A stretch of 46,154 nt of DNA from Leptolyngbyaceae cyanobacterium SM1_4_3 (GTDB taxonomy: Bacteria; Cyanobacteriota; Cyanobacteriia; Elainellales; Elainellaceae). Position 1 is the first letter of the stretch, and every line of letters starts with the position of its first letter. Below are positions 1 to 13,847 of the stretch, piece by piece. Under the pieces are notes generated by a model that saw only the letters and a program-made list of their open reading frames with translations, did not search any database and was not told where the DNA came from. The position numbers and the translations under genes are program-made. The stretch lies in NCBI GenBank assembly GCA_012031415.1, contig JAAUTN010000014.1, positions 1 through 46,154 of the forward strand, given 5' to 3'.

Positions 1-739
<739 letters not shown>

Positions 740-844
740 AGCTCAATTAGCCTCTACATACAAATAAAGTAGTCAAAATCTGTTGCAGACAGAGGGTTAC
801 TGCCTGGATAGAGTTTTTGAACAAATACGATGTCGCTAACCTCA

Positions 845-900
845 GTCTAATCGCTAACTCAACCCGTGATGAAAGGCGGGTTTGGAGTTAGCAGTTAGAC
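845..900. repeat. Imperfect palindrome between the histidine kinase and ftsH
   Basis: GCTAACTC-AACCCG (853-866) faces CGGGTTTGGAGTTAGC (877-892), with outer GTCTAA/TTAGAC arms. It lies downstream of the minus-strand kinase gene and upstream of ftsH. It has no T-run, so a classical terminator is unlikely, though it may still stabilise an mRNA end. Confidence 0.5.
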
Positions 901-941
901 ATATTGAATATTTCTGAGAGCGAATCTTAACTAAATTTAAC

Positions 942-3761
942 CTAATTAGAGGAATTAGAGCAACCGATGGAATTTATTCGCCTGGAGAGCGGCAGGGTAA
1001 ACCAAAAAGTACTGCCACTTCCGAGGCTGCTGTTGACTCCGATTTTGCCGCCGTGAGCGAGAATAATTTGCCGACAGACATAAAGCCCTAGACCTAAACC
1101 AGGGACGTAGCGCGATCGCGCTTCTCGTGCATAAAGTTCAAACACATAGGGGCACTGCTCAGATTTGATTCCCAGTCCGCTGTCTTGAATGGTGCAGCGC
1201 AGCATTGCGGCTTCTATGTCAGCGCTGAGAACTAGTTCTATACCGGGAGGATTGTGTTTGACTGCGTTGGTGATCAGGTTGGTGAACAAACGCCAAAGCT
1301 GAGCATCGTCAGCGCTCACAGGCGGTAAATCAGCCGAAATCAAATTTTTGAGTGTCACCTGATTTTTGGTTAGCAGCGGCTCCAGGTCTGCCAAAACGGA
1401 CTGCACAAAGGGCTGGAGGTAAAGGGGTTGGCAGTGCAGGACGAGACAGCGCACCTCGGTGTCGTGGGCTTCGACCAGGGAGCTGAGCAGACTAAGCTGG
1501 CGATCGCTCCCCTGCCACATTCGCTCTAGGATTGAGCGATTGACCGCCACTGATTTACCAGACTGGTTTAACAGGTTTTTCAACACCATCGAAGCGCCCA
1601 TTACAGGAGTTCGCAAGTCGTGAGTGATGGTATGCAGAAATGCCTGTAGCTGTCTGCGCGATTCAAACTCAGTTCGTTGCAGCCGCTCATACAGAAACAC
1701 TGCCAAATCGCAGATGAAGCAAAACCAGAACAGATAGAGAAAAATGCTGGCTTGGTGGACTGGCTCTCCATCAACTGGGGTTAACCCCAGCGTCAGATAG
1801 GCACCGACGTAATATCCCACTGCTCCGACTTGGGAAATGACGTGTAGCCACCAGCGCACAGGTATCAGAGCCGCCTGCACCAGCAAAATGATGCAAAGGC
1901 TCAAGATGTCGATGTAGACGGAGCCAAATAGCGTACCAATAATTTGTGGTACTAGCGTTACAGACCAGGAGAATCCTAGAAATATTAGATTGGGGTATTG
2001 CTGTCCAAACTGGGTGGAGTGTAGCGTAAGCCAGAAGCATAAACTTAGCCCCATGAAGGCAAAAATTGGAAAAATGAGTGCCCGATAGGTGGCTGAAAAC
2101 TCGGCAAACTCGGATGGCAAGAAGGCTGCCATGTGCCAGTAGCCAAACGCAATCGTCAGAACGTAGGTTAGCGTTAGCCAGAGGCTCAGCCGCAGCCGAC
2201 CGCGCAGCAGATTTTCTTGCCAGGTTTCATAGTTGGCAGATTCGGAGGAGGGTTGAATGTTTCCCAATAAGGCAGTTAGCGATCGCCCCACGCCGCTCTG
2301 CGCTGCCCGACAGAGCGGCTCAATTTGCTGAACTAGGGTGGCGGGCGATCGCCTCTGCTTTACTTCAGCTAAGTCAAATTCAGCGATTGGGTTGGGTTTG
2401 TCTAGGGGCAAAGTGAACCAGACCGTTGTGCCGCTCTGAGGGGCGCTGTTGATGCCGATGCGTCCGCCGTGTGCTTCGATAATTTGACGGCAGAGAGGTA
2501 GCCCTAAGCTCAGCGGTTGAGAGCGTCTCCGGAACCGCACATCGTCAAACAGGCGATCGCCCTGTCCTGATATGCCAGCGCCATCATCCTGAACTAGACA
2601 GTAAACTCTGTTAGCCTCAGCCGAACTGTGTTTTAGCTTCGCTCTCAGCGTTAGGGTGACTCCAGGCGGGTTATGCTCAATCGCATTGGCGATTAAGTTG
2701 TTAAACACTCGCCCCAGTTGGGTTGCATCGGCACTGACGGGCGGCAGATCTGCGGGTAAACGATTTACAATCGTCACCTGCCTTCGGGCTAGCAGCGGCT
2801 CAAAGTCTGTTAGTACGGCTTCTACCAGGCAACTCAGTTGCAATGGCTCTATCTTGCAAACGCACGGTTTGCGGCGGGAATGGGCTTCAAGTAAAGAGTT
2901 GATTAGCTTAAGCTGGCGATCGCTCCCCTCCAGCATTCTCTCTAATGTCTGGCGGCTCACTGCGACCTGTTCGCCCGCCTGATCGAGCAACGATCGCAGC
3001 AACAGCAGCATTCCTGTAACCGGATTTCGCAAGTCATGGGAAACCGCGTGTAGGAAAAACCGTAACTCTCGCTGGGCGCTGAATTCAGCTCGCTGAAGCT
3101 GCTCGTACAGGTAAACTGCCAAATTGCAAATCAGACAAAACCAAAACACATACACCCACACCACTAGGCAGGCATAAACAGGCTGGTCGTTAATGGTGAT
3201 GCCCAGGGCTGAATTGACCCCCAAAAAGTAAATTAGAACCCCTAGCTGGGCAACCAAATGCAGGAACCAGCGCACCGGAATCAGCGTAGCTTGAATCAAA
3301 AATGCTAGATTCCAGGCAACCAGGTCTGGATTGGCTATGCCGTTAAGCGTTGCCACAACTTGCCCAACCAGCGTAATAGACCAGGACAAACAAAGAAATA
3401 AAACGCCTGGATAGCGGCGACCCACCTGCGTGGTGTAAAGCACAACGCAGGATAGCAGCGACAGCAACATAGCCGCCTCTAGCGTCAACACCAATCGATA
3501 GGAAACGAAATGACTGGCTTTGAATGCTTCTGGATTGGCAACGAAACTGTGAAAGTCAAGGGCAATGAAGGTTAGAAGGCAAGGAACTGCTAGCCATAGC
3601 CCCAGACGTAACCGACTCAACATAAAGCGGTCTCGCCATGCCTCATATCCTGTCGATTCAGAGGCGGGTTTGGGCTGCTTGACCAGAGGCAACCCCTCCT
3701 GAACGAGCAAGGCGATCGCCGCTTTACTCGTTGATACCCAACTTCTGAACTGGGATGCCAT
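942..3761 (-). CDS. Tandem-duplicated membrane sensor histidine kinase (two complete kinases in one chain)
   Basis: The 939-residue protein is two copies of the same unit with a period of about 472 residues. Each unit has a short lead (ESxxYExW), about six TM segments (roughly 52-220 and 522-692), a HisKA domain with HDLR (H242 in SHDLRNP; H714 in THDLRTP) and a HATPase_c domain. N boxes are NNLIANAIEHN (354-364) and TNLITNAVKHN (827-837). D boxes are DDGAGI (392-397) and DSGLGI (860-865). The ATP-lid G2 box is intact in the second unit (GLGLGL, 888-893) but reads LSLGLPL in the first. No receiver, PAS or HAMP domain is visible, and no response regulator lies next door, so signal and partner are unknown. 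Histidine kinases normally work as dimers, so the fused pair may act as a built-in dimer; that is inference. Confidence 0.9.
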   Translation of the reverse strand: MASQFRSWVSTSKAAIALLVQEGLPLVKQPKPASESTGYEAWRDRFMLSRLRLGLWLAVPCLLTFIALDFHSFVANPEAFKASHFVSYRLVLTLEAAMLLSLLSCVVLYTTQVGRRYPGVLFLCLSWSITLVGQVVATLNGIANPDLVAWNLAFLIQATLIPVRWFLHLVAQLGVLIYFLGVNSALGITINDQPVYACLVVWVYVFWFCLICNLAVYLYEQLQRAEFSAQRELRFFLHAVSHDLRNPVTGMLLLLRSLLDQAGEQVAVSRQTLERMLEGSDRQLKLINSLLEAHSRRKPCVCKIEPLQLSCLVEAVLTDFEPLLARRQVTIVNRLPADLPPVSADATQLGRVFNNLIANAIEHNPPGVTLTLRAKLKHSSAEANRVYCLVQDDGAGISGQGDRLFDDVRFRRRSQPLSLGLPLCRQIIEAHGGRIGINSAPQSGTTVWFTLPLDKPNPIAEFDLAEVKQRRSPATLVQQIEPLCRAAQSGVGRSLTALLGNIQPSSESANYETWQENLLRGRLRLSLWLTLTYVLTIAFGYWHMAAFLPSEFAEFSATYRALIFPIFAFMGLSLCFWLTLHSTQFGQQYPNLIFLGFSWSVTLVPQIIGTLFGSVYIDILSLCIILLVQAALIPVRWWLHVISQVGAVGYYVGAYLTLGLTPVDGEPVHQASIFLYLFWFCFICDLAVFLYERLQRTEFESRRQLQAFLHTITHDLRTPVMGASMVLKNLLNQSGKSVAVNRSILERMWQGSDRQLSLLSSLVEAHDTEVRCLVLHCQPLYLQPFVQSVLADLEPLLTKNQVTLKNLISADLPPVSADDAQLWRLFTNLITNAVKHNPPGIELVLSADIEAAMLRCTIQDSGLGIKSEQCPYVFELYAREARSRYVPGLGLGLYVCRQIILAHGGKIGVNSSLGSGSTFWFTLPLSRRINSIGCSNSSN

Positions 3762-4045
3762 AGGAGGCGATTCCTCGTAACATAGATTTCCTGGTTGATA
3801 TCAGAGATTTTGAAATGATACAGACTTTTGAGCTAGGCAGACGATTCACGCTAAACCGCCGCTTGCAAGACAACTAACTTCAAGATCTAATGCTATTAGG
3901 TCAGGGAAAGCAATCACCTCCCCCTGACGATTCACCCGTTCGGGGGATAAATTCGGGTCTCTAAGTCCCCAACTGTCCCCGATAGTGTAATGGTCGCCGA
4001 GAAGGGCTAATCTTCCGGGAGGGCTAATCTTTTAAGACGGTGGGC

Positions 4046-4561
4046 CTACTGATTACCCGTAATGCGAATGACGTAAGGATGGTAGCTACCCCGATTGTAG
4101 GAGCCGACCCACACCTGATAGCTACCGGAGAGCCACTGTCCAGCAATTCCAGGATTGTTGCTCTGATAGTCATCGTTACACCAGCTTCCGCCAGGACCGC
4201 GCACAACTAGAGTCGTATCTTCAGGGCTTTCAACTTGAATGCTGAGGTAGCTGAAGAACTCAGTCAGTTGAATAGTGTGGTCGGGCTGCTCATCGACAAA
4301 ACCAGCACACGGACCAGTAGCAGTTTCAGCCCGGCCAGCGATGTTGCTGGCCGTTAACGGCCCACCGCTAATTCCTCGAACTGTCGTGGGGTCTGGAGAG
4401 AAGTCAGGACTCAGGGTAACGTTTTCAAAGATTGAAATGACAGGAGACTGAACCTGTTGAGCATGAGCAGGCGCATCCGCTAACGGTCCAGCCGTGAAGA
4501 CACTGGTGGTCAAGAGTGTGGCTGACAGTCCAATTTTTGAGCGCAGTCCATAAATTTTCAT
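4046..4561 (-). CDS. Small secreted beta-rich protein, PPC-like, function unknown
   Basis: I take the start at 4561 (MKIYGLRSK) because a signal peptide follows directly: hydrophobic stretch then ADAPAHAQQ, a good signal peptidase I site near residue 35. Starts further upstream (to 4684) would add about 40 residues lacking secretion features. The mature part of about 137 residues has TTLVVRGPGGSW, a conserved WCNDD, GIAGQWLSGSYQVWVG and a C-terminal YHPYVIRIT. That pattern resembles pre-peptidase C-terminal (PPC)-like beta-sandwich domains found in cyanobacterial exported proteins. Two cysteines could form a disulfide outside the cytoplasm. The gene stands alone between the kinase and gltX. 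The family assignment is tentative. Confidence 0.7.
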   Translation of the reverse strand: MKIYGLRSKIGLSATLLTTSVFTAGPLADAPAHAQQVQSPVISIFENVTLSPDFSPDPTTVRGISGGPLTASNIAGRAETATGPCAGFVDEQPDHTIQLTEFFSYLSIQVESPEDTTLVVRGPGGSWCNDDYQSNNPGIAGQWLSGSYQVWVGSYNRGSYHPYVIRITGNQ

Positions 4562-4746
4562 TCTGGTGATATTAGCGATATTTAAAGGGCTGGAAATAAG
4601 GGATATAGTTCTAGGGCTGTTATGGATTGGGACTATTACAGATTTTTTATGGACGCTAGCCCAGTTAGGCGAGTTCCAAGTCAAACGGTTTGGTCAACTT
4701 TTACCACAAATCTTTTACTGAGGAGTGTGAATTAATTAACCTGCGG

Positions 4747-4788
4747 GGTAGGTGTCTCACTCACCCGGACGGGCAAGATGCCATTCCA
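4747..4788. repeat. Dispersed repeat, partner of the element at 9720-9765
   Basis: The reverse complement reads TGGAATGGCATCTTGCCCGT, then CCGGG and TGAGACACC, closely matching the palindromic element at 9720-9765 with a few small deletions. It fills part of the 368-base gap between the secreted protein and gltX; the rest of that gap holds only the inverted repeat at 4826-4859. Confidence 0.6.
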
Positions 4789-4825
4789 CAAAATATACAG
4801 TCTACTTAATTTCTAATCCTAAGCA

Positions 4826-4859
4826 GCAGTAGGAGCGAACAAGTGTTCACTCCTACTGC
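4826..4859. repeat. 15-bp inverted repeat downstream of gltX
   Basis: GCAGTAGGAGCGAAC (4826-4840) faces GTTCACTCCTACTGC (4845-4859), one mismatch, four-base loop. It is about 70 bases beyond the gltX stop and could end that transcript, but no T-run follows on either strand. Confidence 0.6.
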
Positions 4860-4929
4860 CAATCTTGCTAGTTTAGAGGACGCTATGGGGCTGCTGCTGG
4901 CTTGATTGATCCGCTGGATCTGGGCGTGT

Positions 4930-6375
4930 TTAGGCGGTCAGGGACAGAGCGCTTTTTAGCCGCAGTTGGTCTAGATTGTGCTGATGCAGCAACAGCCAGG
5001 ACTGAATCAGGTCTGGTCCCTGCATATCGGTCGTTAAAGCAGCCCGGAGCGATCGCATCACCAGCCCTTTTTTCAAATTTTCTGCCTTCACCACCTGCTT
5101 GATCATTTCTTGGGCAGAGGCTTCACCTAGCTCAATATGCTCTGACAAAGCTGCCAGAACGCCCTGCAAAGCTGCGGCTGTGCCTTCTTGCCGCAGTTGC
5201 GTAACTGCCGCCTCAGAAAACTGCATTTCTGGGTCAAACAGGTAGCGGGTCATGGGCACGGCTTCATCCAGTCGAGATAGACTCGCTCCAATCAGCGCCG
5301 AGACTTGCTCTAGCCAGGGGCGATCGCCCTCTGCATCAAAGGCATAGCCCGCCTCCTGCCAGTAGGGAATCAACAAATCAGTCAGCTTTGTCGCTGGCAT
5401 TTCGTGTAAATACTGACTGTTGAGCCAGTTCAGCTTATCCCAGTCAAATTTTGCGCCTGCCTTATTCACCCGCTCAAAGCCAAACTGCTTTGCCGCTTCC
5501 GCTAAGGTAAATCGCTCCTGTGTCGCATCGGGTGGAGACCAGCCCAACAGCGTCATGTAGTTCGCCAGGGCTTCTGGCAAATATCCCATCTTCTTGAAAT
5601 CAAAAATTGAGGTCACGCCATCTCGCTTAGACAGCTTTTTGCCAGCCGGACTGAGAATCAGCGGCGTGTGAGCAAACTCTGGCACCGCTGCATCCAGCGC
5701 TTCGTATAGCAAAATTTGTTTAGCAGTATTGGCGACATGATCTTCACCCCGAATGATGTGAGTAATTTTCATGTCAATGTCGTCTACCACCACCACAAAG
5801 TTGTAGAGCGGCTGACCAATTTGATCGACAGGTGCGCGACGAGCAATCACCATGTCGCCCCCCAAATCGCCGCCCCGCCAGGTCACTTTGCCGCGCACTA
5901 GATCTGTCCAGCTAATTTCGCGATTATCTTCAATTTTGAAGCGAATCACGGGTAGCCGTCCTTCTGCCTGAAATGCAGCTTGCTGTTCAGGAGTCAGGTT
6001 ACGGTGGCGGTTGTCATAGCGGGGGGCTTCGTTTCTAGCTTCTTGCTTAGCCCGCATTGCCTCTAGCTCTGCTTCGGTGCAGTAGCAGTGATAGGCCAGT
6101 CCCCTGTCTAGCAGAGTTTTGGCTGCCTGACGATATAGATCAAGCCGCTTGGTTTGAAAGAATGGCCCCTCATCCCAAGTCAATCCTAGCCAGGTTAGAC
6201 CCTCTAGAATGTTTTGGGTATATTCAGGGCGCGATCGCTCCAGGTCAGTATCTTCAATTCGCAAAATAAACTGACCGCCATGATGCCGCGCAAACAGCCA
6301 GTTAAACACAGCCGTTCTTGCAGTGCCGATGTGCAGGTTTCCCGTTGGGCTAGGAGCAATGCGAACGCGAATCAC
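4930..6375 (-). CDS. gltX: Glutamyl-tRNA synthetase
   Basis: Charges tRNA-Glu with glutamate; in cyanobacteria this enzyme is usually non-discriminating and also feeds tRNA-Gln (via GatCAB) and tetrapyrrole synthesis. Class I signatures are clear: [10 protein letters not shown] with the HIGH-type motif LHIG at residues 14-17, and the KMSKS-type loop KLSKR at 247-251. FILRIEDTD (36-44) and the RGEDH segment (209-213) are also present. The length of 481 residues is normal for a bacterial GluRS, with the C-terminal anticodon-binding domain intact. The start codon is GTG (6373-6375), preceded by a GAGAG stretch; it is chosen because [12 protein letters not shown] is the typical N-terminus. It is followed by the hairpin at 4826-4859 and has no obvious operon partner. 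Confidence 0.97.
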
Positions 6376-7486: not shown

Positions 7487-9457
7487 ATGAGTCATTTTAG
7501 GAATAAGGTGTCAATGCAGCGTTCTGATAGAAGCAATCGATTCTCTTCTGAGGGTTCCAACGATTCTGGACAGGTTTCTCAGAAGAATAAGGGGCGATCG
7601 CCTACCCAAGCTGCCGCAGTGTCGGGCGCAATGACCGCCGTTTGGATGATGTTACAGATGGCGTTGCCCAGCGCTCCAGCGCTAGCCCAAACCAGACAGG
7701 AATCCCTGAGCTATAGCGACTTACTTGAGCGAATTGAAGATAGGCAGGTCAAACGAATAGAAATTGACTCTGCTAGAGGGGTTGCGCGGGTTGAACTGGA
7801 AGGCGAATCTGCTGACACCGCCCTTCAGGAGGTGACGCTGTTTGCAGGCGATCGCAATTCTGAACTAATTGAGGCTGCTCGTGATCAAGGCGTGACGATT
7901 GATGTCCAGCCCACAGCCAGCAACAACGTTGTTACATCGCTGATGATTCATGGGCTGCTAGCATTCTTGCTGATTATGGGGCTGTTGATGATTTTGCGAC
8001 GCTCTAGTAACGCTTCAGGGCAAGCGATGAACTTTGGCAAGTCTAAAGCTCGTTTTCAAATGGAAGCCAAGACAGGCGTGATGTTTGACGACGTAGCAGG
8101 CATCGAAGAAGCCAAAGAAGAACTCCAGGAAGTCGTCACCTTCTTGAAAAAGCCAGAACGCTTTACCGCAGTCGGCGCAAAAATTCCTAAAGGTGTGCTG
8201 CTCGTTGGTCCTCCCGGAACAGGTAAAACCCTCCTGGCAAAGGCGATCGCCGGGGAAGCGGGCGTTCCCTTCTTCAGCATCTCTGGTTCAGAATTCGTGG
8301 AAATGTTTGTCGGGGTCGGGGCTTCGCGAGTGCGTGACCTGTTCAAAAAGGCAAAGGAAAACGCGCCTTGCATCATCTTCATTGATGAGATTGACGCAGT
8401 TGGACGGCAGCGGGGTGCTGGCATCGGTGGCGGCAACGATGAGCGAGAGCAAACCCTCAACCAGTTGCTCACCGAGATGGATGGCTTTGAGGGCAACACC
8501 GGAATCATCATCATCGCAGCAACCAACCGTCCTGATGTGCTCGACTCTGCCCTGCTACGTCCCGGTCGCTTTGACCGTCAGGTTTCCGTCGATCCACCCG
8601 ATATCAAGGGTCGTCTGGAAGTACTGGAAGTTCATGCGCGGAATAAGAAGATTTCTCAGGAAGTTTCCCTGGAGGCGATCGCCCGTCGCACCCCCGGATT
8701 TACCGGAGCCGATCTTGCAAACCTGCTGAACGAAGCGGCAATTCTCACTGCCCGTCGCCGCAAGGAAGCAATCACCATGCTAGAAATCGACGATGCGGTA
8801 GATCGCGTTGTCGCAGGCATGGAAGGAACACCGCTGGTGGACAGCAAGAGCAAGCGACTGATCGCTTATCACGAGTTAGGTCATGCGATCGTTGGAACGC
8901 TGCTCAAAGCACACGATCCGGTACAGAAGGTGACGCTGATTCCTCGTGGTCAGGCTCAGGGTCTAACCTGGTTTACCCCTAATGAGGAGCAGGGCTTAAT
9001 TTCTCGCTCTCAACTGATGGCAAGAATCACCGGAGCACTGGGCGGAAGAGCGGCTGAACACGTAATTTTTGGCGATGCTGAAGTTACCACAGGTGCAGGC
9101 AATGACTTGCAGCAGGTGACAAACATGGCAAGGCAAATGGTGACTCGCTTCGGGATGTCTGACCTCGGCCCACTTTCTCTGGAAAGCCAGCAGGGAGAAG
9201 TCTTCCTCGGTCGTGATTGGATGTCTCGCTCAGAATATTCTGACGAAATCGCTGCCCGAATTGACGCTCAGGTCAGGGCGATCGTAGAGCATTGCTATGA
9301 CGATGCCCGTCGCATCATCCGCGACAACCGCGCAGTGATCGATCGCCTGGTAGACCTGCTAATCGAGAAGGAAACTATTGATGGCGAAGAGTTCCGCCAG
9401 ATTGTAGCGGAGTACGCCGAGGTTCCTGAGAAAGAGCAGTACGTTCCACAGCTTTAA
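7487..9457 (+). CDS. ftsH: FtsH-type AAA+ zinc metalloprotease, intact copy
   Basis: Complete 656-residue FtsH. It has a basic, Ser/Asn-rich N-terminal extension (1-40), a first hydrophobic segment (45-68) ending in APALAQ like a signal peptide, a periplasmic or lumenal domain, and a second TM (150-170). The AAA+ module has Walker A GPPGTGKT (241-248), Walker B IIFIDEID (296-303) and the second region of homology with arginine fingers (R358, R361). The zinc site is HELGH (462-466). The end ([11 protein letters not shown]) is of the FtsH2 type. The AAA+ part is almost identical at DNA level to the broken copy at 1-250, whereas the N-terminal third differs, so the two are likely different paralogues (FtsH1- and FtsH2-like) homogenised by gene conversion. 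A second possible start is M10 at 7514. A terminator follows at 9593-9619. Confidence 0.95.
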
Positions 9458-10097: not shown

Positions 10098-12317
10098 ATG
10101 ACCTTTAAACGCCGACACTTTCTCATGTTCTTGGGCGCGAGTGCTGGCTCGATCGCCCTCGGACCGATTGCTCAGGTAGGGCAAAAGTTTTCCATGCCAT
10201 TCCAGGCTGGAGCAGCAAACGCCAGCACTGTAGATGGATTAACCTTTACTCCTGTTTCAGGGCCAGTACCGCTTGAATACACCGGAATTTTACCTTCTGA
10301 CCAACCCAGCCAGTACGGTAGCTACCAGGTCGTCGATGACATGGTAGTACCAGAAGGCTTCACCTATGACGTAGTTGTAGCCTGGGGTGATGAAGTTGGA
10401 GATTCCCGCTTTGGCTACAACAATGACTACCTCTCTTTCGTTGAAACTGCGCCCAACGAAGGGTTTTTGACTGTCAATTTTGAGTACATCAGCGGCAAAG
10501 CCTGGATGCAAACTTATCCAATGGTAATTGGTCGCTCTTTGCCGTTTGAGGAGGTTATGGCAGCCGCAGCCGCTACCGAGGGCGAACTCGACGCTTTTGC
10601 CTTGCCAGATAGCGATCCGCTCAAAGCGCAAATCATTGAAATTTCCAAAGAAGGTTTGATTGACCAGGGAATTGGCGTAATTTCTATTCGTCGCAACGCA
10701 GACGGCGCATGGGAGCGCACTTACTCTGAAGCCGATCGCCGCATTACAGGCATCTCTGGCTTGGAAGACGGTCGTTATCTCAGAGCAACCGGCCCTTCTA
10801 TCGCCGTATTTGAGAAAGCCACCAAGATGGGTTACGACGATGGGTTGGGTAGCCAAATCATCGGTTCATTCCAAAACTGTGCAGGCGGAACAACCCCCTG
10901 GGGTACCGTTTTCAGCGCTGAAGAAAACTTTCAGGATCAAGTGCCTGAACCCGTGTTAGCAGACGGCTCCTCCTTAGAGCCATCCGAGAAGCTGTTTATC
11001 ATCACAGAAGATGATGTGGACGGTCGTGGCAACCCACTAGGATTAGCGGGTAATAAATACGGTTGGATGGTCGAAGTTGACCCCGCCAACCCAAATGACT
11101 ATGGCGTTAAGCACACCTGGTTGGGACGCTACCGCCACGAGGCAGTTGGAATTCGAGCAGTCGCAGGAAGCCGTTTGGCTTTTTACTCAGGCTGCGATCG
11201 CCGGGGCGGTCACGTCTACAAGTTTGTCAGCAGCGGCACAGTCAGCGACCCTCAAGATAAAGCCAACTCTCAACTGCTGTCTGACGGAATGCTCTACGCT
11301 GCCAAGTTTAACCCCGACGGCACAGGTAGCTGGATCGCGCTAGAACCTAGCACAGCTATCAACCCCGACTTGCCCAGCAACATTGCAGGTGGGCAACTCG
11401 ACTTGCCGCTCCGTCCTGATGGCGGTATCTTTACCGCAGAAAGTGACGAGGCAGTGTCCCAGTTTAAGCAGCAGTACAGCACCCTCAGCGACCTTTACGA
11501 AGGAACCGATGAGGAAAAGCAGGGCGCAATTTTGATTGACGCTCACTATGCTGCAAATGCGGCTGGCGCAACTACAACGGCTCGTCCAGAAGATACCATT
11601 GTTGATCGCAATACAGGTACGCTTTACATTGCCTTTACCTCTGGCACTCCCGGTGGAGATGGCGGACCTGATGCCCGCATCTTTGTTGGGCCCAACGGCG
11701 AAACCGAGTATGAGTACGGCTTCATCATGAAGCTAGAGGAATCGGGAAATGACCCCGCTGCAATGACTTTCAACTGGGAGATGATTTCTTTAGGCGGTGA
11801 ACCTGCTGATGGCGGCTTGGGATTCTCTAACCCCGACAACATTGAGGTAGATGCAGACGGCAACCTGTGGATGGTGACGGACACGTCTACCAGCAGTCAC
11901 AATAAAGCCGTTCCCAGTCGAATCGATGCAGACGGCAACCCAATCAAGCAAACCGATACACTGGGCATTTACGGCAACAACTCCGTCTGGTTTATACCTA
12001 CCTCCGGCCCTAATGCAGGTAATGCCTACCTGTTTGGCTATGGTCCAATGGAATGTGAAACCACTGGACCCTACCTCAGCAAAGACCAGCAGACGCTCTT
12101 CCTGGCAGTTCAGCATCCCGGTGAGCGAAACGGAATGCGTCAAGAAATGGCATCTGAAACCCGTGAGTACGCCATGAAGACCACTGACGGACAGGAATTC
12201 ATGCAGTCCCGTGAAGTGCCACTTGGCTCTAATTGGCCCGGCAAGACAGCAAATGAGCCGCCGAAACCCGCTGTGATTGCAGTACGACGTACTGACGGAA
12301 ACAGCTTTACTGCCTGA
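10098..12317 (+). CDS. phoX: PhoX-type alkaline phosphatase, Tat-exported
   Basis: Periplasmic or extracellular phosphatase of the PhoX (DUF839) family; known members need Ca and Fe and release phosphate from organic esters. I choose ATG 10098 rather than 10017 because a twin-arginine signal begins there at once: FKRRHFLMFLG (residues 3-13), hydrophobic core, then a likely cut near residue 42 (AGAANA). Family blocks visible are NCAGGTTPWGTVFSAEENF, WLGRYRHEAVGIRA, CDRRGGHVYKF, ARPEDT and SNPDNIEVDADGNLWM. The mature part of about 700 residues matches the family. A weak Pho-box-like array lies upstream and a strong terminator downstream, so it is probably monocistronic and phosphate-regulated. 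Confidence 0.92.
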   Translation: MTFKRRHFLMFLGASAGSIALGPIAQVGQKFSMPFQAGAANASTVDGLTFTPVSGPVPLEYTGILPSDQPSQYGSYQVVDDMVVPEGFTYDVVVAWGDEVGDSRFGYNNDYLSFVETAPNEGFLTVNFEYISGKAWMQTYPMVIGRSLPFEEVMAAAAATEGELDAFALPDSDPLKAQIIEISKEGLIDQGIGVISIRRNADGAWERTYSEADRRITGISGLEDGRYLRATGPSIAVFEKATKMGYDDGLGSQIIGSFQNCAGGTTPWGTVFSAEENFQDQVPEPVLADGSSLEPSEKLFIITEDDVDGRGNPLGLAGNKYGWMVEVDPANPNDYGVKHTWLGRYRHEAVGIRAVAGSRLAFYSGCDRRGGHVYKFVSSGTVSDPQDKANSQLLSDGMLYAAKFNPDGTGSWIALEPSTAINPDLPSNIAGGQLDLPLRPDGGIFTAESDEAVSQFKQQYSTLSDLYEGTDEEKQGAILIDAHYAANAAGATTTARPEDTIVDRNTGTLYIAFTSGTPGGDGGPDARIFVGPNGETEYEYGFIMKLEESGNDPAAMTFNWEMISLGGEPADGGLGFSNPDNIEVDADGNLWMVTDTSTSSHNKAVPSRIDADGNPIKQTDTLGIYGNNSVWFIPTSGPNAGNAYLFGYGPMECETTGPYLSKDQQTLFLAVQHPGERNGMRQEMASETREYAMKTTDGQEFMQSREVPLGSNWPGKTANEPPKPAVIAVRRTDGNSFTA

Positions 12318-12366
12318 GTGAGTAAGCTGTGACGGTATAAGCTCACAACATCTGATATATGTTTAT

Positions 12367-12402
12367 TGGGCAATGGGCGATCGCTCATTGCCCATTTTCT
12401 TT
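12367..12402 (+). terminator. Terminator of phoX with a HIP1 site in its stem-loop
   Basis: TGGGCAATG (12367-12375) pairs with CATTGCCCA (12386-12394), followed by TTTTCTTT. The part between is G-GCGATCGC-T, so the whole 28 bases form one long palindrome around a HIP1 octamer. Confidence 0.85.
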
Positions 12403-12482
12403 GATATGGAGAGTTATGCTTGATGCAAGTCATCTTCGCGCCTTGATCCCCTCTGCCAGAGCTTTTTGAGTGAGAATTGCCT

Positions 12483-13037
12483 ATGACTTCATTGGCAAAG
12501 TCGATTGTTCGCATCGGGCTACTTGCTTTTCTGGCGCTACCCCTGTCCATGTTGCCTCACACTCAACTCAGCAGGTCTGATGCCTTGAATACTGCCTCTC
12601 TCATAACAGTTGTAGACAACCTCCACAGACAAAACTTTCTTACAGAATCCACCTACCAGAAAGTTAGGCGTTTGATAGAACTGGGTGGAATACAAGGGCG
12701 ATCGCATTTACTCCGCTGTGTGATAGAAGATTCATTTCGCCGCTGGTCAGAATCTTCTGAAATTTCTGCACTTAGTGAATCCTCTGTTTGTGGTTCTGAG
12801 AATACCACACGCCTTCTAGTAATTTCTGGCGAAATGCCTTTCGCGGAACTCCAAAAGTCACTTTAACGGTTAAATGGTACAGGTGTGCTAAGTCCACCAG
12901 TCTATCAGCAATTGAAGGAGGAACTTGCGGTAGGTCAGATTAGCTTAGATGTTGACCTATTTCAACAAGCCGAGACCCGGATGCAGCAGTACGAGCGGCT
13001 TCAGCCAGAGGCGATCGCTCCTAACTATTTGCACTGA
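12483..13037 (+). pseudogene. Small secreted protein interrupted by an in-frame TAA
   Basis: From ATG 12483 the frame gives 127 residues with a signal peptide (AKSIVRIGLLAFLALPLSMLP) and then stops at TAA 12864-12866. The same frame continues without another stop for 56 codons to TGA 13035-13037 (RLNGTGVLSPPVYQQLKEEL and on to EAIAPNYLH). The join reads smoothly as one protein (SGEMPFAELQKSL / RLNGTGVL), and the second stretch looks like coding sequence. I infer one gene of about 185 codons with a nonsense mutation, or a sequence error. I do not recognise the family; the middle resembles a short helical segment (VVDNLHRQNFLTESTYQKV). Confidence 0.6.
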
Positions 13038-13040
13038 TGA

Positions 13041-13847
13041 TTAATAATTTTTGATCATCAACTCTTTACCTTTGGCAGCAAATTCCTGCTTGTAATTGTT
13101 CATGCCGTATTGCAACGTCCATTCAACGATGTTGGCAAAACTAAATAGATTCCGAATTTCAGGAGAATCGTCATAAGTAATGAGCCATTTGTGGGAACAT
13201 TGCCTCATATTTGCTGCAAAGCGTTCATGATCAAAAGAAGTATGTAACCCTCCTCTGACTCCATACAATCGCGATTTTGTAGCGTTGAAATAGGGCGGGT
13301 CGAGGAAAATAAATACTTCGTCTCCCTCTTGAAACAGCAACTTTGCATAGTCCTGATTGGTGATTTGAACAGAAGCTAAAAGTGGAGAAAGCTGTCGCAG
13401 TCTACCAATTGAGGAATCTGTAAACCTGCGCTCAAAAGCCTGTTGGGAATATCCGCCCGAATCCACCGTACCAGAAAAAGTAATCCGATTTAGCACAAAA
13501 AATCTAACTGCCCGGTCAAACTCGCTTAGTTTTAAATCGGCACGGGTGAAATGCTCAAATAGTTCTCGTCCACTCGTATATTTCTGCTTAATTTCTATTA
13601 CTCTCTCTACTAAAGCTTCAATATCATCTCTGGCGCTTTCCCAAAAGCAATACAAATCAAAATTTAAGTCATTAATCCAGTAAGTCCTGACTCGATTGTT
13701 GAATAGCTGCCTAATTGCTAGAAAAACCGATCCTCCTCCCACAAATGGCTCTCGAAACTCTACAAAATTGAGTGGAACAGAAGGCATGATTTGCCCTATA
13801 GCCTTTGATTTGCCACCGGGATAGCGAAGTGGGCTTTTAATCTTCAT
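13041..13847 (-). CDS. D12-class DNA N6-adenine methyltransferase (Dam-like), orphan
   Basis: Transfers methyl from S-adenosylmethionine to adenine in DNA. Typical D12/M.DpnIIA layout: LRYPGGKSK near the N-terminus, AdoMet-binding FREPFVGGGS (31-40), VLNRITFSG (118-126), catalytic DPPY (183-186) and a C-terminal NNYKQEFAAKGKELMIKNY. Length 268 residues is normal for the family. No restriction enzyme gene is adjacent, so it is probably a solitary methylase. Target is inferred, not seen: relatives with this layout modify GATC, which lies at the heart of HIP1. Its end is 3 bases from the end of the convergent small gene. Confidence 0.93.
   Translation of the reverse strand: MKIKSPLRYPGGKSKAIGQIMPSVPLNFVEFREPFVGGGSVFLAIRQLFNNRVRTYWINDLNFDLYCFWESARDDIEALVERVIEIKQKYTSGRELFEHFTRADLKLSEFDRAVRFFVLNRITFSGTVDSGGYSQQAFERRFTDSSIGRLRQLSPLLASVQITNQDYAKLLFQEGDEVFIFLDPPYFNATKSRLYGVRGGLHTSFDHERFAANMRQCSHKWLITYDDSPEIRNLFSFANIVEWTLQYGMNNYKQEFAAKGKELMIKNY

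Follow-up and report, generated by a model that had tools for sequence, protein, structure and literature searches.

The 46,154-nucleotide stretch of DNA analysed here (the window; contig JAAUTN010000014.1 of Leptolyngbyaceae cyanobacterium SM1_4_3, positions 1 to 46,154) carries on its minus strand a gene, at 942-3761, that encodes two membrane histidine kinase units in tandem within a single chain of 939 residues, beginning at an ATG and with the stop codon included in the span. The frame is taken from the open-reading-frame listing and the Pfam matches, and has the same length at two related loci, L018 and L019. An earlier note, made from the letters of the DNA, had proposed such a tandem with a period of about 472 residues. 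Indeed, BLAST aligned unit 1 with unit 2 at an offset of about 472 residues with 204 identities in 432 alignment columns (47%, E 1e-132), and Pfam matched two stretches each of HisKA (PF00512, whole-protein E 7.3e-18) and HATPase_c (PF02518, E 2.8e-45). Each unit consists of a membrane module of about 195 residues, followed by HisKA (DHp) and then HATPase_c (CA). The phosphoacceptor histidines, H242 and H714, are both present and both units have an N box, as the note had also stated.

All parts of the gene lie on the minus strand. The membrane module of unit 1 (residues 31-225; 3087-3671), with six main helices, was delimited by blastp, an AlphaFold2 model and fold alignment to the transmembrane bundles of adenylyl cyclases. 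It is followed by DHp1 (residues 228-300; 2862-3080; Pfam HisKA at 233-292 and our motif table), in which H242 sits in SHDLRNP (codon 3036-3038), and by CA1 (residues 303-455; 2397-2855), which keeps its N and G1 boxes and has lost the Tyr of the F box. Within CA1, the region of the F box, ATP lid and G2 box (residues 401-432; 2466-2561) reads PLSLGL where GLGLGL is expected and is a net three residues shorter than its counterpart in unit 2 in the alignment. An inter-unit linker (residues 456-500; 2262-2396) evolves fast, being 47% identical to that of strain FACHB-471 with a ratio of nonsynonymous to synonymous substitution rates (dN/dS) of 0.71. Unit 2 comprises a membrane module (residues 501-692; 1686-2261; blastp and module profile), DHp2 (residues 700-772; 1446-1664; sequence and motif table), with H714 in THDLRTP (codon 1620-1622), and CA2 (residues 775-927; 981-1439), where the best Pfam stretch is 818-926 and all checked motifs are canonical. 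The note had spoken of two complete kinases; both units do have a module, a DHp and a CA, but unit 1 has a degraded ATP lid. No Pfam family matched the membrane part of the protein, and no receiver or HPt domain was matched in the chain up to E 1, which places it outside the hybrid kinases.

The two membrane modules are 41% identical. The doubling is old, because just one long stretch of DNA repeat remains visible: among the 20 of 25 direct-repeat families shown for positions 1-6000, the sole long one is 71 nucleotides at 77% with a spacing of 1416 (3 × 472), and the other 19 are 12-20 nucleotides long.

Conservation of the tandem and distribution of its module

The same 939-residue protein is encoded in RM1_406_9 (a metagenome-assembled genome, G021; best-segment identity 97%) and in FACHB-471 (G022, locus L019; best-segment identity 83%), in the latter on a 344-kb contig. 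The earlier note had named as refuting an assembly duplication or homologues that are all single units; instead, the frame recurs in these two further assemblies, and not every homologue is a single unit. A search of other cyanobacterial genomes for the architecture, which the note had suggested, found it in all three returned genomes of genus g1, where the full tandem forms open frames of 952, 944 and 949 codons containing two modules. A shorter two-module frame, of 780, 779, 778 and 773 codons, occurs in the three g1 genomes and in G015 (genus g8).

A module profile of 22 rows matched 27 of the 36 genomes of the family, where the three g1 genomes are the only ones listed with the full tandem, and the order-level search covered the same 36 genomes. 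In a class sample the module was matched in 108 of 388 genomes (at most eight scored candidates per genome), with no further two-module frame among the matches listed. In a phylum sample, which overlaps with the class sample, the unit 1 module was matched in 49 of 386 genomes, all of the same class, again with no new two-module frame among the matches listed. Module-bearing frames were present at 24 of 26 named related loci, comprising 2 tandems, 15 single kinases (two of them one Mastigocoleus gene on two contigs) and 7 frames without a kinase match. A plasmid search returned at least two records covering at least 80% of the query, from Calothrix sp. NIES-4101 (a 1296-nucleotide place) and Pseudanabaena sp. 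ABRG5-3 (a 1431-nucleotide place); their length marks them as single-unit relatives that both halves of the tandem match.

For the membrane module of unit 1, AlphaFold2 gave a model (residues 26-240, 27 alignment rows) with a pLDDT of 87.7 and a pTM of 0.81, containing six main helices, of which one is broken and one has just 14 residues, and the last extends toward the DHp. The top row in VIA-align was ImcA of strain PAO1 (Z 14.0), a diguanylate cyclase, and 11 of the 12 best rows were the adenylyl cyclases AC9, AC8 and AC5 (Z 10.9-13.1, 184-196 residues aligned, root-mean-square deviation 3.5-4.4), aligned on their first transmembrane bundle. Rv1625c came next at Z 7.3, with the rows below starting at 6.6; helical bundles may reach Z values under about 13 by common arrangement alone. 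Foldseek returned no row for the model at E ≤ 0.001 (8wcn 2.8e-3, AC5 0.86), and the module profile had no sequence match in the PDB at E 1. The Pfam family AC_N matched 4 of the 22 module members weakly (best E 5.7e-5), with scores of 17.4 bits for L020 and 15.7 bits for L065 against a curated cut-off of 30.9 bits, and ten other Pfam families matched one member each (E 0.0029-0.25). A class III cyclase domain stands behind the module in two scanned relatives, L010 and L035, the latter being the one scanned of the seven module loci without a kinase match. L010 (1441-2745, plus strand, contig C397) is a paralogue from the genome of the window itself. The predicted module has a six-helix bundle fold of the adenylyl-cyclase type, as in AC9, AC8 and AC5, with weak support from sequence; this assignment is favoured because class III cyclases, including one encoded in the window's genome, carry the module as well.

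Unequal halves of the tandem

To compare the two halves with their relatives, we used 41 hand-picked units, 36 of them with a CA, for the tree, the motif table and the count of core positions; they came in part from a subset of class-sample genomes chosen by hand for closer reading. Left out were eight single kinases in which module and kinase stand further apart (L027-L033 and L039; PAS checked in L028 only), L026 (the same organism and frame as L024) and frames without a kinase. All 36 CA-bearing units keep the phosphoacceptor His, the Asn of the N box, the Asp and both glycines of G1, the Phe of the F box and the last Gly of G2. The Tyr of the F box is absent in exactly three of the 36, the first units of the 939-residue tandem; two of these, from the window and RM1_406_9, are also the only units without the middle Gly of G2. 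The first Gly of G2 varies in six units, three of them outside the tandem. The ATP lid of the first units is a net three residues shorter in the alignment.

Selection appears to act on the two halves to different degrees. Compared with FACHB-471 (NG86), dN/dS was 0.055 for module 1, 0.037 for DHp1 and 0.177 for CA1, and 0.058, 0.052 and 0.080 for module 2, DHp2 and CA2, respectively. The value for DHp1 was the lowest among the regions compared, and dN was higher in CA1 than in DHp1 in 300 of 300 bootstraps. By these ratios DHp1 is well held by selection, and CA1 is still constrained, though probably more loosely. The suggestion in the note that selection may hold both units was thus right in that both are under purifying selection, but the hold is apparently unequal. 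Because DHp1 is tightly held and the ATP-binding half of unit 1 less so, the tandem is probably not two equal kinases.

Partners without a CA domain, and gene neighbourhood

The shorter two-module frame is a paralogue of the tandem, paralogue B, with the layout module-DHp-module-DHp-CA, the first CA being gone. In the window's genome it lies on contig C683 (L011, 67-2406, minus strand; 780 codons in frame, 765 residues from the ATG), and it is present in four genomes of two genera (the window genome, G021, G022 and G015). Its first H box reads SEDLR, with Glu for His, in the three g1 copies. In all four copies the first DHp keeps 19-21 of 24 core positions (those hydrophobic in at least 90% of full units), and 4-5 of 39 surface positions are hydrophobic. 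For the two computable pairs, dN/dS of the first DHp was 0.14-0.15 and that of the second 0.03, with 0.22-0.25 for the first module and 0.03-0.06 for the DHp and CA of the second unit. As far as such ratios tell, the first DHp of paralogue B is under selection, though looser than the second.

A comparable arrangement of two separate genes occurs in genome G028 (L072, 4393-5979 and 5966-6826, plus strand, contig C318), as neighbours about 10 nucleotides apart. The first gene encodes a full six-transmembrane kinase; the second is a 287-codon frame with a module and a DHp only, and has Gln for His. Across the 41 units His is present in 37. All four exceptions are partnered units without a CA, whereas the one other CA-less unit, that of G015, retains the His. 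Grouping the G028 partner with the first units of paralogue B was rejected (p 0.03, for a group named after the tree had been seen), so loss of CA beside a partner probably happened twice. The two G028 genes as sisters were not rejected (p 0.37).

Several other short frames were considered as CA-less units. Those in G281 and G018 were rejected, being kinases split over two frames, as was that of G057, which is split within the membrane module and has no kinase match; a 446-codon frame in G167 has the module and no kinase match and was not counted. G205 (L064, 800-3991, minus strand) and G346 (L068, 625-4996, minus strand) each have full single-unit kinases with this module paired close together, possible forerunners of a fusion. 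Beside paralogue B on C683 lies a Tab2-like gene (L050, 4635-5494, minus strand), apparently over two frames in the draft, of which the first was scanned.

Around the tandem, the order of genes in FACHB-471 is that of the window: ftsH, an FMN reductase, a class I (E and Q) tRNA synthetase, a small protein, the tandem and a second ftsH. The small protein (4046-4684, minus strand) is conserved upstream of the tandem in FACHB-471 (L019, 5221-5736) and had no Pfam match in either the window or L019. The flanking ftsH genes of the window, at 122-739 (minus strand) and 7487-9457 (plus strand), look scrambled in this draft assembly of 7.79 Mb and 700 contigs when read against L019. The 122-739 fragment begins as the second FACHB-471 ftsH and then diverges, and the 7487-9457 gene starts as the first and ends as the second. 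This looks like misassembly or recombination at a near-identical stretch, with the tandem in between intact.

Proposed pairing within one chain and comparison with known systems

We read the tandem, with fair confidence, as a membrane histidine kinase that is a pseudo-heterodimer in a single chain, with the layout of the mammalian adenylyl cyclases. Fusion would give one chain both halves of what its single-unit relatives need a homodimer for. The two membrane bundles would lie side by side, and DHp1 and DHp2 would come together in one intramolecular four-helix bundle; given an even number of helices, both ends of each module, and with them both DHps, are predicted to be cytosolic, which would make such side-by-side pairing possible. 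CA2 with H714 would be the full kinase and unit 2 would do the chemistry, and CA1, with the core of its nucleotide pocket kept and its lid degraded, is probably weak or regulatory. Unit 1 would serve as a receptor and as half of the DHp bundle, with DHp1 as a structural partner and possibly as a second phosphoacceptor or a phosphatase surface. Since the two membrane modules are not alike, a single kinase output could be driven by two inputs or by one asymmetric ligand.

Signalling would go to a response regulator encoded elsewhere. No response-regulator gene lies beside the tandem, the only two Response_reg matches listed on the window contig C5 (29360-29698 and 30568-30900) being about 26 kb off, and none was found on C683 beside paralogue B among the matches listed (150 scored of 193 candidates, genome-wide). 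A response-regulator gene next to a kinase gene is common and not required.

Paralogue B bears on the pairing of the two DHps. In HisKA folds the DHp hairpin returns the chain toward the membrane, and this return would make a first unit without CA easy to join to the next module. If the bundle of the Glu-bearing paralogue forms within the chain, CA2 would phosphorylate the second His only, and in cis. An in-chain DHp1-DHp2 bundle gains indirect support because the paralogues keep the first DHp yet drop its CA and, mostly, its His too.

Several observations weigh against this reading. An AlphaFold2 model of the whole tandem (nine alignment rows, of which six single-unit rows all fall on unit 2, leaving three rows for unit 1) was too poor (mean pLDDT 54.5, pTM 0.29) to show any DHp1-DHp2 contact, and served for helix positions only. 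H242, the N box and G1 are intact in unit 1, so CA1 may be active, and the first unit of FACHB-471 keeps the middle Gly of G2. Although dN was higher in CA1 than in CA2 in 286 of 300 bootstraps, zero lies within the 95% interval for this difference (-0.012 to 0.123), which makes it suggestive at most, and part of the gap in dN/dS comes from a lower dS in CA1 (0.77, against 1.06 in CA2). Between the close pair of window and RM1_406_9, dN/dS was 0.090 for CA1, 0.055 for CA2, 0.059 for DHp1 and 0.31 for DHp2, making DHp2 the loosest of the six domains. The 939-residue form is represented by three sequences only, two of them 97-98% alike by unit. For paralogue B, dS ranges from 0.6 to 1.6 by domain where computable, with one of three pairs uncomputable, and the first H box of the G015 copy still reads SHDLR.

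A further point on that side is that the pairing could instead be between two tandem chains, each unit with its like. Such like-with-like pairing (1 with 1', 2 with 2') would tie together two homodimeric kinases and join two signals, or two phosphate donors, at a fixed ratio; we think it unlikely, though it deserves serious weight. Single-unit relatives predominate among the matches listed and, being HisKA kinases, should form homodimers; DHp1 is the most conserved piece of the protein against FACHB-471, and unit 1 keeps every checked motif except the F-box Tyr and part of G2. However, among the 36 units only unit 1 has lost that Tyr and the middle Gly of G2, and the first unit of paralogue B cannot be a kinase and is still kept, where a dimer of first units alone (1-1') would lack any output.

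It is improbable, in our judgement, that unit 1 is mainly an added receptor, with DHp1 and CA1 as passengers nearing loss, unit 2 as an ordinary homodimeric kinase and paralogue B as the next step. The relaxed look of CA1 and its absence from paralogue B would fit such a course, as would the faster evolution of the first module and DHp of paralogue B (0.22-0.25 and 0.14-0.15) than of its second DHp and CA (0.03-0.06). A passenger would not be expected, however, to show the lowest dN/dS of the regions compared (0.037 for DHp1 against FACHB-471) or to keep 19-21 of 24 core hydrophobic positions after its CA was lost, and G028 retains a CA-less DHp as a separate gene. That the tandem arose in assembly or annotation, through two adjacent or similar genes being wrongly joined, is barely credible: the assembly is a 700-contig draft and the ftsH genes on both sides look misassembled or recombined, but the 939-residue frame stands in two other assemblies, one 83% identical on a 344-kb contig with the same neighbours, and the units differ at half their residues.

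With a little more doubt than belief, we extend the pseudo-heterodimer reading to its history. Histidine kinases may have independently taken the route of mammalian adenylyl cyclases, from a six-transmembrane homodimer to a single-chain pseudo-heterodimer, one half catalytic and the other its partner, that is active as a monomer through an obligate in-chain DHp1-DHp2 bundle, with the stages preserved side by side within a small cyanobacterial group. These stages would be the single unit, the gene pair with a dead partner, the full fusion with a decaying CA1 and the fusion without CA1, in which the first His is replaced in three of four. In the best tree, unit 1 falls close to an Iningainema kinase of the single-unit form (86/91), and unit 2 next to one from G015 (99/92). 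The tests did not reject a shared fusion event with paralogue B (p 0.33 for the first units, p 0.24 for the second). Weighing against the pseudo-heterodimer reading, internal duplication was not rejected either (p 0.22), and the trees fit both internal duplication and fusion of paralogues. On contig C4 of G015 (L071, 4201-6099, minus strand, and 11816-13255, plus strand), the single-unit sister kinase of unit 2 has an ftsH relative within 6 kb; the tandem too has ftsH nearby, a hint that the two share a locus.

In symmetric homodimers the role of each half of a histidine kinase is obscured, whereas in the tandem each half can be mutated alone in one chain, and in sister proteins one half is already without its ATPase and often without its histidine. 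Half-of-sites activity, phosphorylation in cis versus trans and the role of the second module thereby become directly testable. If the fold match is true, a six-transmembrane module of the adenylyl-cyclase type serves histidine kinases and has been doubled in one bacterial chain as in the eukaryotic cyclases.

Among the titles and opening abstract lines listed by our searches of an open-access library, which most subscription journals lie outside, none described a natural single-chain, two-unit histidine kinase of this kind. A comparable laboratory construct is the monomeric EnvZ derivative of Qin et al. (2000), cited in PMC10359499, which reportedly has two DHp domains before one CA; its layout would be that of paralogue B minus the membrane parts. 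RetS and GacS are encoded by separate genes and form two chains, and the G028 gene pair is closer to this type than the window tandem is. These two different sensor kinases interact, according to excerpts of PMC12148439. The LOV histidine kinase EL346 is a natural example that works without a DHp homodimer, through intramolecular association; unlike the tandem, it is soluble, belongs to the HWE/HisKA2 family and has its DHp dimer face blocked by the LOV sensor, with no second DHp (from the parts of PMC10359499 available). The 'tandem serine histidine kinase' KdpD, in the text extracted from PMC11018627, is a different matter.

Kinases of the CqsS/LqsS type resemble the tandem in their described layout, a six-transmembrane receptor with short loops on a histidine kinase, but are single units. 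These quorum-sensing kinases are homodimers, and their receptor can replace the membrane anchor of a cyclase (abridged text of PMC4821796). Bacterial class III cyclases likewise need homodimerisation (PMC4821796), and the mammalian enzymes join two such units end to end as a pseudoheterodimer (PMC4821796 and PMC9552081, each in excerpt). In AC1-AC9, described there as class IIIa pseudoheterodimers, one chain holds two six-helix modules, each followed by a catalytic unit. The tandem differs from them in being bacterial, in having HisKA-HATPase as its output and in having one catalytic half that is decaying or lost; it shares with them the pseudo-heterodimer layout of module-catalytic-module-catalytic in one chain, with halves that have diverged.

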